Of a DNA stretch of 64,000 nucleotides, positions 57,012 through 63,242 are shown piece after piece. Source of the stretch: an uncultured Bacteroidales bacterium (GTDB lineage: Bacteria > Bacteroidota > Bacteroidia > Bacteroidales > F082); the NCBI GenBank assembly GCA_900317155.1, contig ONFO01000015.1, forward strand, positions 1 through 64,000, read 5' to 3'. Numbering within the stretch: the first letter of the stretch is position 1; every line of letters begins with the position of its first letter. The notes under the pieces were generated by a model that searched no databases, had not been told where the DNA came from, and saw only the letters and a program-made list of their open reading frames with translations. The translations under genes were made by a program, and so were the position numbers.

Positions 57012-58073
57012 CTATTTCACAAGAAGTTTCTCGTATTTCAGCACATTGCCATTGCACATCAATTTGACAATGTAGCAACCTTTGGCAAAACCATCAGGCA
57101 AAGTCACAGCAAAATCGCCGACAAGATGTCCAGAAATCTTAAACAGGGTTCGGCCACACAAGTCACAAATGGCGACAGCATCAAAAGCATTACAGTTGCT
57201 GCTCAAATGCAGGGTTTGTCCACACTCTATGGGATTGGGAAATAGATAAACCTCCATCGAGTTCTCCTCCACAACACTCCAGTTAGGATCCCAAATCATG
57301 CGGGCATACTCCGGATGGTCGACAAAAGGATTTCTATTGTGCTGGTAATCATTGTAAATTGTCTCATTACGTTCTTTTTCCTTTTCGCTCACAGGGTCCA
57401 ACTCATTCCAACGCAGCAACATTTCAATAGCCCATGGCTTGATTTCCGACTTGCTGGTCATGTCGCTACTGCTCCAGCTAGCATCTTCGCTAAAGTAACG
57501 TACACTCATGTACATGATGGCACGAGCAAAATCACCTTTGTACTCATCAATGGGCTCAAACACCGTCCCTGAAAAGCCTGGTGTTTTGCAAGCACCTAGT
57601 TTTGAGCCATTTCGAGAAGTCCAAGAAGCAGAGCCAACCTCACCAAAAGCGTAATTACCGCGACGGTTATTGACGTACCCATCAGTTGGAAAAATGTGAT
57701 GTAAGTCTGTACGCGGAGTGTTCTGATCATTAAACCAGCTCGAGGGCCATGAATGCTCACGGTTGTAGCAGTCACCCTCACCACTGTAGTTACCGCATTG
57801 GTCCTCACCAAGGTAATAAACATAAGGAGATGTCCCATTGGGGCGGTCAGAATACATGTCCCACACTACACCATTGCCTTTATTGTCGGTGCTCCAGAAA
57901 GCATTCCAAATCTGAGCATACGATATGGAAGAGTGCCCCTTGATGATATTGTGCAAGGCGACCTTCAACTGATTTCCTGTCAATCCATTGGCCGAGTTGT
58001 AATAATTGGCAGGCTGCGCTGCAACAAGCAACGCAAAAGACAAAGCTATTATAAGTGAAAATACCTTTTTCAT
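57012..58073 (-). CDS. Secreted endonuclease I with T9SS sorting domain
   Basis: A 353-residue extracellular nuclease of the EndA/endonuclease I family. Signal peptide MKKVFSLIIALSFALLVAAQ, metal-finger active-site region NREHSWPSSWFNDQNTPRTD with LHHIFPTDGYVNNRRGNYAF (catalytic His and Asn), then a T9SS sorting domain (LFPNPIECGQTLHLSSNCNA to KLLVK). It probably degrades extracellular DNA for nutrients or biofilm turnover. It starts 21 bp after the MntP-like gene, likely in the same transcript. Confidence 0.9.
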   Translation of the reverse strand: MKKVFSLIIALSFALLVAAQPANYYNSANGLTGNQLKVALHNIIKGHSSISYAQIWNAFWSTDNKGNGVVWDMYSDRPNGTSPYVYYLGEDQCGNYSGEGDCYNREHSWPSSWFNDQNTPRTDLHHIFPTDGYVNNRRGNYAFGEVGSASWTSRNGSKLGACKTPGFSGTVFEPIDEYKGDFARAIMYMSVRYFSEDASWSSSDMTSKSEIKPWAIEMLLRWNELDPVSEKEKERNETIYNDYQHNRNPFVDHPEYARMIWDPNWSVVEENSMEVYLFPNPIECGQTLHLSSNCNAFDAVAICDLCGRTLFKISGHLVGDFAVTLPDGFAKGCYIVKLMCNGNVLKYEKLLVK

Positions 58074-58094: not shown

Positions 58095-58658
58095 TTATAT
58101 CAAATCCGTAAACAAATAAAGAATGGCTATAACAACCATAAACACTGAAGCAGAGAATTCAACAAAACTCACCTTTTTGATGATGCCAGGAGTAAAGTCA
58201 ACGCGGACAGTGAAGAGAGCCCACAAAAAGCCCGCCACCGTGACCGCAACGAAAAACCATTTCCCAAATGGTGCATAGAACACGCTCACAATCGAATAGA
58301 GAAAGGTATTGAACGCCGCAAGGATGGTAAGCAGAAACATTTCACTCTCTTTGCTGACCGTATACATCATCTTGCCTTTCAGCACTCGCATAGAATCAAC
58401 AAACATCTTTACCGCAACCACAAGCATCATGGCAAAGACCATATAATCAGCGATATAGGTAAAAAGATGCGCTATCAGACGTCCCAATCCGCTACCCCAC
58501 AAGGCCATTACACCTTGACTGAGGCCAAAAGTTACAGGAATCCATATCTTCTGCGATGGTTTGTCGTCAGAGTTCACCAAACCCACCGAACGCGAGACCA
58601 CGCTGGAGGTCAGACAAAGGATAAAAAGGATACCAATTATTATTGATGCAGTGGTCAT
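58095..58658 (-). CDS. MntP-like manganese efflux membrane protein
   Basis: A 187-residue protein of six predicted membrane helices. Conserved-looking MntP features are FGLSQGVMALWGSGLGRLIA and the ADYMVFAMMLVVAVKMFVDS helix, with gaps in the acidic residues expected of MntP. It belongs to the DUF204/MntP-like group by layout; Mn2+ export is likely but not proven. Its own -7 box is at 58677-58684. The endonuclease gene follows. Confidence 0.65.
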   Translation of the reverse strand: MTTASIIIGILFILCLTSSVVSRSVGLVNSDDKPSQKIWIPVTFGLSQGVMALWGSGLGRLIAHLFTYIADYMVFAMMLVVAVKMFVDSMRVLKGKMMYTVSKESEMFLLTILAAFNTFLYSIVSVFYAPFGKWFFVAVTVAGFLWALFTVRVDFTPGIIKKVSFVEFSASVFMVVIAILYLFTDLI

Positions 58659-58684: not shown

Positions 58685-58710
58685 CATATTTTTTCGTTGA
58701 CAAGACAAAA

Positions 58711-58742
58711 ATTGGAGACTCAACTTGGGTTGAGTCTCCAAT
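58711..58742 (-). terminator. Terminator of the gatE-gatD operon
   Basis: A perfect 13-bp stem ATTGGAGACTCAA/TTGAGTCTCCAAT with a 6-nt loop. On the minus strand it is followed by TTTTTG. Confidence 0.88.
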
Positions 58743-58768: not shown

Positions 58769-60157
58769 TTACTTATGCACCTTGCGGATAAACTCCTCCA
58801 CCTCAGGCACGCCGCCCTGATAAACGAGATAGCCGTTGTAAGGCTCTCTCGGGGTGATTTCGCTGTTCACAGGGGTGAGCATGATGTTCTTCACCTCTTC
58901 GCGGTCGTGCGTCTGACCCAAAGCCCAGCCCAACTTGATGTAAGCGGTCTCGGCGAGCATGTTCTGTGCGGGGATGATGCCACGGTCCATGAGGTCACGG
59001 CCAGTGTCGTAAACGAACATGTGGGCATAGCCCCAGATGGTTTGCACGGTCATGTATTGGTGCACGCCCTTGTCGGTGGCACGCTGGATGGCGTCGAACA
59101 TGCCACGGTTGACGTGACCCAAGCCCGTGCCATCCCAAACGATGCCCTGATAACCATTGTCTACCAAGGCGTCAAGCACATCGGGCTTCATGCCAGGATA
59201 GTAATAGAGGATGGCCACGCGGTCGTCGAAGGTCGGGATGATCTTCACGTCGCGGTCGTTGCGGCGGTGGTTGTAGACTTCCTTAATCGGCACCACGCCA
59301 CGTTTGCGGTCGACGGTAGCGACAGGCGTGTCGCCGATGGTGCGGAAGGTGGAACGATAGGACGAGTGCATCTTACGCACACGCGTGCCACGATGCAGGA
59401 AACCATACTCGTCGGAGGTGGGACCGAACATGCAGACCATCACCTCGGCCACATCGCCGTGACCGGCAGCGGTCATGGCATGCATTAGGTTCAAGGCAGC
59501 ATCCGAAGAAGGACGGTCTGACGAACGCTGCGAGCCGACCAAGACAATCGGCACAGGCAGGTTCTGGCACATGAAGGTCAAAGCGGCGGCGGTGTGGGCC
59601 AAGGTATCGGTGCCGTGGCCAATGACGATGCCGTCGATGCCGTTCTGGATCTCCTCGCCAATCTTCTTGGCTAAGGCGATGTACTCCTTGGGCGACATGT
59701 TCTCGGAGAACACGGCAAACACCTTCTCGGTGTCGAGGTTGCAGATGTCGGCCAACTCCGGCACGGCGCCATACAGCTCACCCGGCGAGAAAGCGGGAAT
59801 CACAGCGCCCGTGCGGTAGTCCAAACGCGATGCAATGGTGCCACCCGTGCCGAGCAGCTTCACGTGCGGAAGTCCCTCAGTGTAAGGGAATTCCTTCTCC
59901 GGAATGTGGTAGTTGGCTTTCTTGTAGTCGGTCTCGACCATGCCCGTGATGGTGCTGATGTCGACACCGATGTTGTAACCCGTGTTGACCTTCATGACGA
60001 TATGTTGGTCGTCCTGGAAGGCGGCGCGAGGCAGGATCGTGCCTTTGAAAAGGCCTCCCGTGGTCTGGCACTCGGCCTGACTCCACACGCGGCAGTTGTA
60101 TTTTTTGAGCACCTCAAGCGAGGCGCCCCAATATCCTTGGAAAAAATCTTCAGCCAT
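58769..60157 (-). CDS. gatD: Glu-tRNA(Gln) amidotransferase subunit D (archaeal type)
   Basis: A 462-residue glutaminase subunit of GatDE, which with GatE converts Glu-tRNA(Gln) to Gln-tRNA(Gln). The N-terminal ~95 residues are the small beta domain typical of GatD. The asparaginase-like domain has LGTGGTIAS (102-110, catalytic Thr107), GHGTDT (180-185, Thr183 and Asp184) and Lys262 in RKMHSS, spaced as in archaeal GatD. The N-terminal domain and gatE next door distinguish it from a free L-asparaginase. It lies 8 bp after gatE. Strong codon bias suggests high expression. The family is described as archaeal, so transfer is likely. Confidence 0.9.
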   Translation of the reverse strand: MAEDFFQGYWGASLEVLKKYNCRVWSQAECQTTGGLFKGTILPRAAFQDDQHIVMKVNTGYNIGVDISTITGMVETDYKKANYHIPEKEFPYTEGLPHVKLLGTGGTIASRLDYRTGAVIPAFSPGELYGAVPELADICNLDTEKVFAVFSENMSPKEYIALAKKIGEEIQNGIDGIVIGHGTDTLAHTAAALTFMCQNLPVPIVLVGSQRSSDRPSSDAALNLMHAMTAAGHGDVAEVMVCMFGPTSDEYGFLHRGTRVRKMHSSYRSTFRTIGDTPVATVDRKRGVVPIKEVYNHRRNDRDVKIIPTFDDRVAILYYYPGMKPDVLDALVDNGYQGIVWDGTGLGHVNRGMFDAIQRATDKGVHQYMTVQTIWGYAHMFVYDTGRDLMDRGIIPAQNMLAETAYIKLGWALGQTHDREEVKNIMLTPVNSEITPREPYNGYLVYQGGVPEVEEFIRKVHK

Positions 60158-60165
60158 GTTCTTCT

Positions 60166-62112
60166 TTATTTGATGTTGTTAGCCAATTCTTTCATTTCGA
60201 TGTTGCCCATCGCTTCCTTCATCTGACCCATGATCCAGTTCTGACGGTCGAGGTCGGTGCAGGACTTCTTCTTCGGCGCGAAGCCGGCGCAGAGGTTGTC
60301 GAGCTTGGTGAGCAGGTCATCTTTAGCATAGCGCTTGAAGCCCATCTTGTTCAACACTTGCTCCATCGGCAATGATGCGTCTTCCACCAAAGCGGGAGCC
60401 ATGTTCCAAGCCAGACGATAGTCCAGACCTTGCTCCTTCAGGAAAGCAAAGAGCTTGTACAAAGTCTCGCCGTTGAACTTCGAAGCGGCGTTCTTGCCCA
60501 GCAGGTGCTTGAGTCTCATGCCAACGAAGCGGCCCACGGTGCGACCATCCACGCCGAGTTTCTCGACGACTTCGGCCATGGCGGGGAACCAGTTCTTTGC
60601 GAAGATGTAACGGAAGCAGTCCTCCGGCACGTTCCACTCCTTGAGTTTGTAGTAACGGTCGATGATCTCGGTAGGCATCTCGGCACGCAAAGCCTTGATG
60701 AAAGCCGGGTCGAGCGGGATGGGAGCCGAGTCGGTGTCGGGATACATACGGTCGGCACCAGGGAGCACGCGCTCGAAGATGGTGATGCCGTTGCAGATGG
60801 CCTTACGGGTCTCCTTCGGCACGCCGTCGAAGGCCATGAGGCAACGCTCTTCGATGGTCTCGATGGCGGTAGGCATGTCGTTCTGCGGACCCCACACGAG
60901 GATGAGGGCATCCTCATCGGTGGCATGGACACGCTTGGCCAACTTATGCCATTGGGAATGGGTCAGCACGGGTTCCAGCATCTCGTCGTGGAGCATGTTG
61001 GGACGCTCGAGGCAGGCGATGACCTTCAGGCGGTCGGCGATTTCGTCGGCAAACATCTTGCCGGGTTGGGTGAAGTGCGAAAGCACGCCACGGAACTTCG
61101 GCAACTTGACGAGTTTCAAGGCGCCACCTTTGGCTTTGTTGTCGAGGATGGGCAGGTAGTCGGTCGGGAACGACACATCGGCCACTTCCACCTTCCAGCC
61201 TTCCTTGCCCACTTCACGGTTGAGGCGCTCTTGCAGCTGCACCAACGACCACTGGCGGAAGCACTCATTGTGCGACAACTCGGGGATCCACTTGGCGTGT
61301 TGCACACCCTTCAACTCGATACGGGTGCCGCCTGTGCAACTCACATTGACGTCTTGACGGCCTGCGCCCATGCCTGTGCGGACAAGGCCAGTGCTACGGC
61401 CGAGGAAACGAATGAATTCGCAGGTCTCGCGCAACTCGTCGGGGTTCTTGCAGTCGGGATAGGTGACGGTCTCAATCAACGGCACGCCGAGACGGTCGGT
61501 CTGATAGATACGACGGTGGCCAATGTCGCTAATCTCGCGGCAGGCGTCCTCTTCGATGCTCAGTTGGATAAGGCGGATGTCCTTCTTCGGCAACTTGAGC
61601 AGGCCTTCCACGCCCACGATGGCGGTACGTTGGAAGCCCGTCGGGATGGAGCCGTCGAGGTATTGTTTACGGGTGATATGCACCTCGCCCACGATGTTCA
61701 GGTTCGAACGCAAGGCGATGATGATGGCGTTGTGCAAAGCCTCGCGGTTGATGGGGAACGGCGGGGTGTCGTCAATGTCGTAGGTGCAGGCGGTGCCGTT
61801 CTTGATGCGGTAGACGATTTCCTTCTTCGTCTTGAACTCCATCAAGGCTGTTCCGTCGTATTCGCCTAATTCTGAAAGAGTTGGGCGCATGTGACGGATC
61901 AGTTCGGCATCGTAGTCCTCAAACTTGTTGAATTGTCCGGCGGGACAGTGGCAAAACAGCTTCTCCTTGGTCTTGATCTGCTGGTGCACTTCCAGTCCCG
62001 ACATGAAGCCTATGCGGTAATAGTCTTCCTGTGTGGCTTTCTTGCGCTCGACGTAGCCAGCCTGTTGCTTGGTCAGCTCGTAGTTGGCGCGTGGGTCAAA
62101 GTTGGTGCTCAT
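60166..62112 (-). CDS. gatE: Glu-tRNA(Gln) amidotransferase subunit E (archaeal type)
   Basis: A 648-residue kinase/amidotransferase subunit. The GatB-like core holds GFMSGLEVHQQIKTKEKLFC (35-54), GEVHITRKQYLDGSIPTGFQ (142-161), LSIEEDACREI and TDRLGVPLIETVT. An aspartyl-tRNA-synthetase-like insertion spans ~310-440 (DALILVWGPQND, IEERCLMAFDGVPKETR), the hallmark of GatE over bacterial GatB. PGADRMYPDTDSAPIPLD (451-468) and a helical YqeY-like tail follow. All motifs are intact. It is the first gene of gatE-gatD, with a 40-bp repeat holding a -7-like box at 62212-62251 in its leader. Confidence 0.92.
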   Translation of the reverse strand: MSTNFDPRANYELTKQQAGYVERKKATQEDYYRIGFMSGLEVHQQIKTKEKLFCHCPAGQFNKFEDYDAELIRHMRPTLSELGEYDGTALMEFKTKKEIVYRIKNGTACTYDIDDTPPFPINREALHNAIIIALRSNLNIVGEVHITRKQYLDGSIPTGFQRTAIVGVEGLLKLPKKDIRLIQLSIEEDACREISDIGHRRIYQTDRLGVPLIETVTYPDCKNPDELRETCEFIRFLGRSTGLVRTGMGAGRQDVNVSCTGGTRIELKGVQHAKWIPELSHNECFRQWSLVQLQERLNREVGKEGWKVEVADVSFPTDYLPILDNKAKGGALKLVKLPKFRGVLSHFTQPGKMFADEIADRLKVIACLERPNMLHDEMLEPVLTHSQWHKLAKRVHATDEDALILVWGPQNDMPTAIETIEERCLMAFDGVPKETRKAICNGITIFERVLPGADRMYPDTDSAPIPLDPAFIKALRAEMPTEIIDRYYKLKEWNVPEDCFRYIFAKNWFPAMAEVVEKLGVDGRTVGRFVGMRLKHLLGKNAASKFNGETLYKLFAFLKEQGLDYRLAWNMAPALVEDASLPMEQVLNKMGFKRYAKDDLLTKLDNLCAGFAPKKKSCTDLDRQNWIMGQMKEAMGNIEMKELANNIK

Positions 62113-63184: not shown

Positions 63185-63210
63185 ATGCGTTAGAAAAATG
63201 TATTAAAAAT

Positions 63211-63238
63211 GTAGAGACGCGATCAATCGCGTCTCTAC
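63211..63238 (-). terminator. Palindromic terminator of the ABC exporter gene (GTAGAGAC family)
   Basis: A perfect 13-bp stem GTAGAGACGCGAT/ATCGCGTCTCTAC with a 2-nt loop, 4 bp after the stop and followed by ATTTTTAAT on the minus strand. It has the same 28-bp length and arms as the in-gene copies at 20567 and 37361. Confidence 0.8.
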
Positions 63239-63242
63239 AGGG

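Follow-up and report, generated by a model that had tools for sequence, protein, structure and literature searches.

How does a Bacteroidales bacterium come to encode an amidotransferase that the literature assigns to archaea, and what might the enzyme be doing there? The question is raised by two adjacent genes in a 64,000-nucleotide stretch of DNA (contig ONFO01000015.1; hereafter the window) from an uncultured member of this order. They resemble gatE and gatD, the genes for the two subunits of the Glu-tRNA(Gln) amidotransferase GatDE. In the passages cited here, this enzyme 'exists exclusively in archaea' and counts as an archaeal signature protein (PMC8762117, 2022), is found today in archaea only and was possibly present in the last universal ancestor (PMC9499178, a 2022 review), and is likewise given as archaeal (PMC8007984). 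The first-pass annotation of the window had started from this view, which these sources bear out, and had gone on to propose a horizontal acquisition from archaea that led to a replacement of GlnRS, a back-up to it or an altered specificity.

A GatDE gene pair in a Bacteroidales genome

Both genes lie on the minus strand. gatE (60166..62112) encodes 648 amino acids comprising a GatB/GatE catalytic core, interrupted by an AspRS-like (GAD) insertion at about residues 303-430, and a helical and C-terminal tail region. gatD (58769..60157) encodes 462 amino acids, in which the N-terminal GatD domain precedes a two-part asparaginase domain with T107, T183, D184 and K262. The genes are intact and retain all tested catalytic residues, and in the alignment the catalytic positions of both proteins are identical to those of archaea. 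By profile score the window's GatD satisfies the curated models TIGR02153 and NF003217. GatE passes TIGR00134 (376.8 bits against a cut-off of 319.55) and stays below the cut-off of NF003107 (431.3 against 456 bits), although 614 of its 630 positions are matched. The best match of the predicted GatE structure is a solved archaeal GatE. Both subunits, the domain order, the catalytic residues and the fold are thus the same as in archaeal GatDE, which is known from Pyrococcus abyssi (1zq1) and with tRNA(Gln) bound (2d6f). A plain asparaginase was considered and rejected: the separate asparaginase of the same genome reaches 203.8 on TIGR02153, where the cut-off is 324. Models, residues and fold therefore uphold the architecture read from the letters alone, and the pair probably encodes a Glu-tRNA(Gln) amidotransferase.

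Directly 3' of gatD, a hairpin followed by a T run (58707..58741, minus strand) resembles an intrinsic terminator; it was read by eye and is absent from the hairpin-scan list. Downstream of it follow, on the same strand, a gene for a putative manganese efflux pump (Mntp; 58095-58658) and one for a secreted endonuclease I (57012-58073), whose C-terminal type IX secretion sorting signal scores just below the cut-off. Upstream of gatE, a perfect 13-base hairpin with a T tail (63210-63239, minus strand) lies between an ABC-transporter gene and a 288-aa gene of no known function. A search of the window found no tRNA genes. Two close relatives show the pair in other forms: in G134 (L291:5342-8644) gatE and gatD make up a single open frame of 1100 codons, either a natural fusion or an assembly error, and in G083 (L289:6116-7348) a 410-aa open frame, perhaps an inserted element, separates the two genes.

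Distribution of bacterial GatDE

Is the window an isolated case? GatE scores over the cut-off in 96 of the 149 genomes of its family. At E<=0.001 this rises to 106 of 149 and all 16 of 16 genera, some of the weak matches spanning the tail region only. Within the genus a GatE match is present in 38 of 75 genomes, and in some relatives the copies are broken or contain a stop. In the phylum, 30 of 395 genomes (the window's included) exceed the cut-off. These genome counts include a few doubles, as G264/G570 (same coordinates), G118/G573 and G066/G575 each look like one genome.

A DNA pattern of three GatE motifs, which recovered 49 of the 54 loci then in hand (of the five missed, three are other genes, one is a cut GatE and the last a GatE bearing an indel), was used to scan named genomes. 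It retrieved at least 117 loci, which by a keyword reading of their titles comprise at least 62 archaeal and at least 55 bacterial ones. Among the matches listed, the bacterial loci bear 14 NCBI phylum labels, as deposited in the case of metagenome-assembled genomes (MAGs), plus six loci without a label. Most bacterial records are MAGs. Named strains among the matches listed are Marinifilum flexuosum DSM 21950, Labilibaculum sp. K2S and Perlabentimonas gracilis M08_MB. In four Pacearchaeota loci (L117, L122, L127, L152) the GatE match covers no more than roughly the initial 275 profile positions, which may reflect a GatE that is short or split, or a different protein resembling GatB/GatE.

A literature search limited to open-licence PMC papers found no description of a bacterial GatDE in the portions of text it returned. 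We are thus dealing with a known enzyme whose bacterial variant is apparently undescribed. Automatic annotation presumably already names many of these bacterial genes.

An apparently old bacterial lineage

Where did the bacterial genes come from? A quick GatE tree was built from 124 rows with at least 420 matched positions, 72 of them bacterial (the window, 24 chosen from further genomes and 47 from named ones) and 52 archaeal. All 72 bacterial rows fall on one side of a single branch (support 100), and a locus from Odinarchaeia adjoins them (99). A careful tree of 27 plus 27 hand-chosen rows, from which L071 was omitted for its long branch, recovers the bacteria with 100/100 and the archaea without Odinarchaeia with 100/99. 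The GatD tree, for which at least 300 positions were required (52 bacterial rows, 40 archaeal rows and one asparaginase), again unites the 52 bacterial rows (99), and these together with Odinarchaeia (99). The window itself groups with its family and other Bacteroidota rows. Forcing the Bacteroidota-type rows, a group picked after the first tree had been seen, to join the archaea carries a penalty of 128 log units (AU p 2.4e-53).

Gene order draws the same line between the two domains. Archaeal GatDE is mostly encoded as gatD then gatE (46 of 48 loci with both genes, one further locus having them opposed), in contrast to gatE then gatD on one strand in 87 of 88 bacterial loci (the window being counted twice) and opposed genes in the remaining one. 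The only archaeal locus among the 48 with the bacterial order is that of Odinarchaeia (L078), which is also the nearest archaeal branch in both trees. It sits on a long branch, and its genome also has GatB and a single PF00749 match only.

Rooting gives a less simple picture. When the GatE tree is rooted with GatB, the bacteria, Odinarchaeia and the other archaea meet at a root whose order is not resolved; when the GatD tree is rooted with asparaginase, the whole bacterial clade falls inside the archaea, but at a place where long branches join. This is the sole arrangement in which the window's GatDE nests among archaeal sequences.

A recent acquisition of the pair from an archaeon by this Bacteroidales lineage, along the lines proposed in the first-pass annotation and in keeping with the family names and the literature, is therefore very improbable: the phylogenies of both genes place the pair within a large bacterial lineage, the outcome that the annotation itself had named as speaking against transfer, and a grouping with archaea is rejected. 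Archaeal contamination of metagenome bins, a concern where most bacterial records are MAGs, is scarcely credible given that the three named strains carry GatDE and that the bacterial rows are not scattered among the archaea. Judged by sequence comparison, the window's GatDE looks like a member of an old bacterial lineage passed on within bacteria. We tentatively entertain the further possibility, doubtful as it is, that this lineage roughly equals the archaeal one in depth, going back either to before the split of the domains or to a single ancient exchange with an archaeon of Asgard type, and that its carriers are the first known case of bacteria encoding GlnRS alongside an indirect route dedicated to Gln-tRNA(Gln). 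Asgard archaea are represented in these trees by one locus.

GatDE beside GlnRS

Does GatDE stand in for a missing synthetase? The window's genome encodes a GlnRS of 581 aa (667.9 bits, cut-off 425.8), an AsnRS (615.8 bits, cut-off 342.6) and a GluRS of 505 aa, and a profile search found no GatB in it besides GatE. A need for Asn-tRNA made via GatDE was rejected on account of this AsnRS. Across GatDE-bearing bacterial genomes, GlnRS exceeds the cut-off in 53 of the 64 searched and AsnRS in 26 of 32. Of the 34 bacterial genomes from which named loci came, 8 have GatB alongside GatE, as do 22 of the 29 phylum genomes outside the window's family. These 29 divide into 19 with GlnRS and GatB, seven with GlnRS only, three with GatB only and none with neither; many Ignavibacteria-like genomes carry GlnRS, GatB and GatE together. 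Sixteen family genomes without GatE over the cut-off also have no GatB. In four MAGs of the 34 (G558, G562, G564, G567), their completeness not stated, GatE occurs with no GatB and with no GlnRS above the cut-off, which would be the expected pattern if GatDE sufficed for the route; in G560 a GlnRS fragment stays below the cut-off. An Acidobacteriota MAG (G554; L212 and L213) and a Cloacimonetes MAG (G559; L218 and L219) have GatDE, two GluRS genes each and a GlnRS.

Bacterial GatDE hosts thus differ from archaea, all known members of which lack GlnRS (PMC9499178, in the passage cited). Another parallel is the presence of GatCAB beside GlnRS and AsnRS in Bdellovibrio, Deinococcus and Thermus, likewise a tRNA-dependent amidotransferase in addition to both direct synthetases, which the cited section of PMC4206432 explains by Asn made on tRNA(Asn). 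This explanation does not extend to GatDE, since tRNA(Asn) is, according to the part cited of PMC7541841, never a substrate of GatDE.

Hints at the tRNA substrate

If not tRNA(Asn), is tRNA(Gln) the substrate? Among 71 family genomes with glnS in the matches listed, a few of them with GatE fragments only, 15 have gatE and glnS no more than 55 kb apart on the same contig, where 2.35 would be expected at random; the nominal P of 9e-9 takes genomes as independent and ignores kinship, and the 55 kb limit was set after the distances had been seen. In three genomes of different groups the two genes are neighbours: convergent and 3 bases apart in G162, convergent and about 0.7 kb apart with a tRNA-Gln gene between them in G035, and, by coordinates, divergent and about 0.7 kb apart in G569. 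The distance is 4.3 kb in G112, where GatE shares 96% identity with that of the window; in the window's own assembly glnS and gatE lie on different contigs. This linkage favours tRNA(Gln) as the substrate.

The tRNA genes add a qualification. According to the cited portion of PMC9499178, archaeal GatDE reads A1:U72 and the D-loop of tRNA(Gln). The tRNA-Gln(CUG) genes beside glnS at 12 family loci, drawn from 10 of 20 and 2 of 6 stretches examined, have U1:A72 in 12 of 12 cases, 10 with GatE and two without, so that among these loci the pair shows no association with GatDE. If tRNA(Gln) is the substrate, its recognition must differ from that of the archaeal enzyme.

GluRS gives less guidance. 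The window's enzyme keeps the equivalent of Arg358 of the discriminating Thermus thermophilus enzyme, and among 71 GluRS sequences this position is Arg in 64, a gap in four, Lys in two and Asn in one, alike with and without GatDE, so the residue speaks neither for nor against a GatDE route. A different GluRS occurs in part of the window's genus: two were fetched (L200 and L201, from G072 and G099; 43-44% identical), and match length places G109, G118, G124, G129, G132, G136, G139 and G141 with them. GatE is present in 10 of 10 genus genomes so classed and in 28 of 65 others (Fisher p 0.001, genomes taken as independent), a lead that this GluRS may need GatDE.

A second route to Gln-tRNA(Gln)?

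We lean towards the reading that the pair encodes a bacterial Glu-tRNA(Gln) amidotransferase of the GatDE type, inherited within an old bacterial lineage, and that this enzyme supplements GlnRS by a second, or corrective, way of making Gln-tRNA(Gln). The family chemistry, as summarised in the section cited of PMC8762117, releases ammonia from an amide donor, phosphorylates the glutamyl carboxyl group and then amidates it. For the window's enzyme we infer activity, substrate, mischarging and corrective role along these lines: GluRS would mischarge tRNA(Gln) to Glu-tRNA(Gln), GatD would split glutamine to yield ammonia, and GatE would spend ATP on activating the tRNA(Gln)-bound glutamyl group and amidate it to Gln-tRNA(Gln). 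As GlnRS is also present, GatDE is taken to use up Glu-tRNA(Gln), adding to the supply of Gln-tRNA(Gln) and keeping Glu out of Gln codons. On our best reading this route is possibly a minor one.

Of the roles suggested at the outset, replacement of GlnRS is refuted in the window's genome by its 581-aa enzyme; while it might be imagined for the four MAGs in which neither GlnRS above the cut-off nor GatB was found, it is a most improbable account of this locus. A supplementary role is what we prefer, and altered specificity may also apply. Bacterial GatDE could amidate another misacylated tRNA or another glutamyl compound and leave Gln-tRNA to GlnRS alone, a shift that would suit the U1:A72 of the tRNA-Gln genes read and the retention of GatDE where GlnRS and AsnRS, and in 19 of 29 phylum genomes GatB as well, already cover ordinary charging. 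We consider it rather unlikely, as the catalytic positions are those of archaea and linkage to glnS points to tRNA(Gln). A match in only half of the genus genomes (38 of 75) implies that GatDE is dispensable there, and one may ask whether the pair is a little-used relic on its way to being lost. Stop-containing or broken copies in some relatives, and the 16 family genomes left with no such amidotransferase at all, would agree with this; the intact window copy with every tested residue kept and a clade that covers many phyla do not, and we judge it improbable. The second, corrective route that we favour does not explain everything well either: dispensability within the genus fits it poorly, as does the co-occurrence of GlnRS, GatB and GatE in Ignavibacteria-like genomes, and a need for such a route does not account for the 19 phylum genomes where GlnRS and GatB are both at hand.

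Implications

The bacterial clade flatly contradicts the statement that GatDE is exclusive to archaea. If active, bacterial GatDE also contradicts the 2014 statement, in the passage cited of PMC4206432, that no bacteria are known to encode both routes to Gln-tRNA. The clade also allows the age of the enzyme to be tested through a sampling of bacteria and Asgard archaea; an origin older than the division between the domains, if true, is what the idea of GatDE in the last universal ancestor predicts. Named strains such as Marinifilum flexuosum, in turn, make a dual-route supply of Gln-tRNA testable at the bench.
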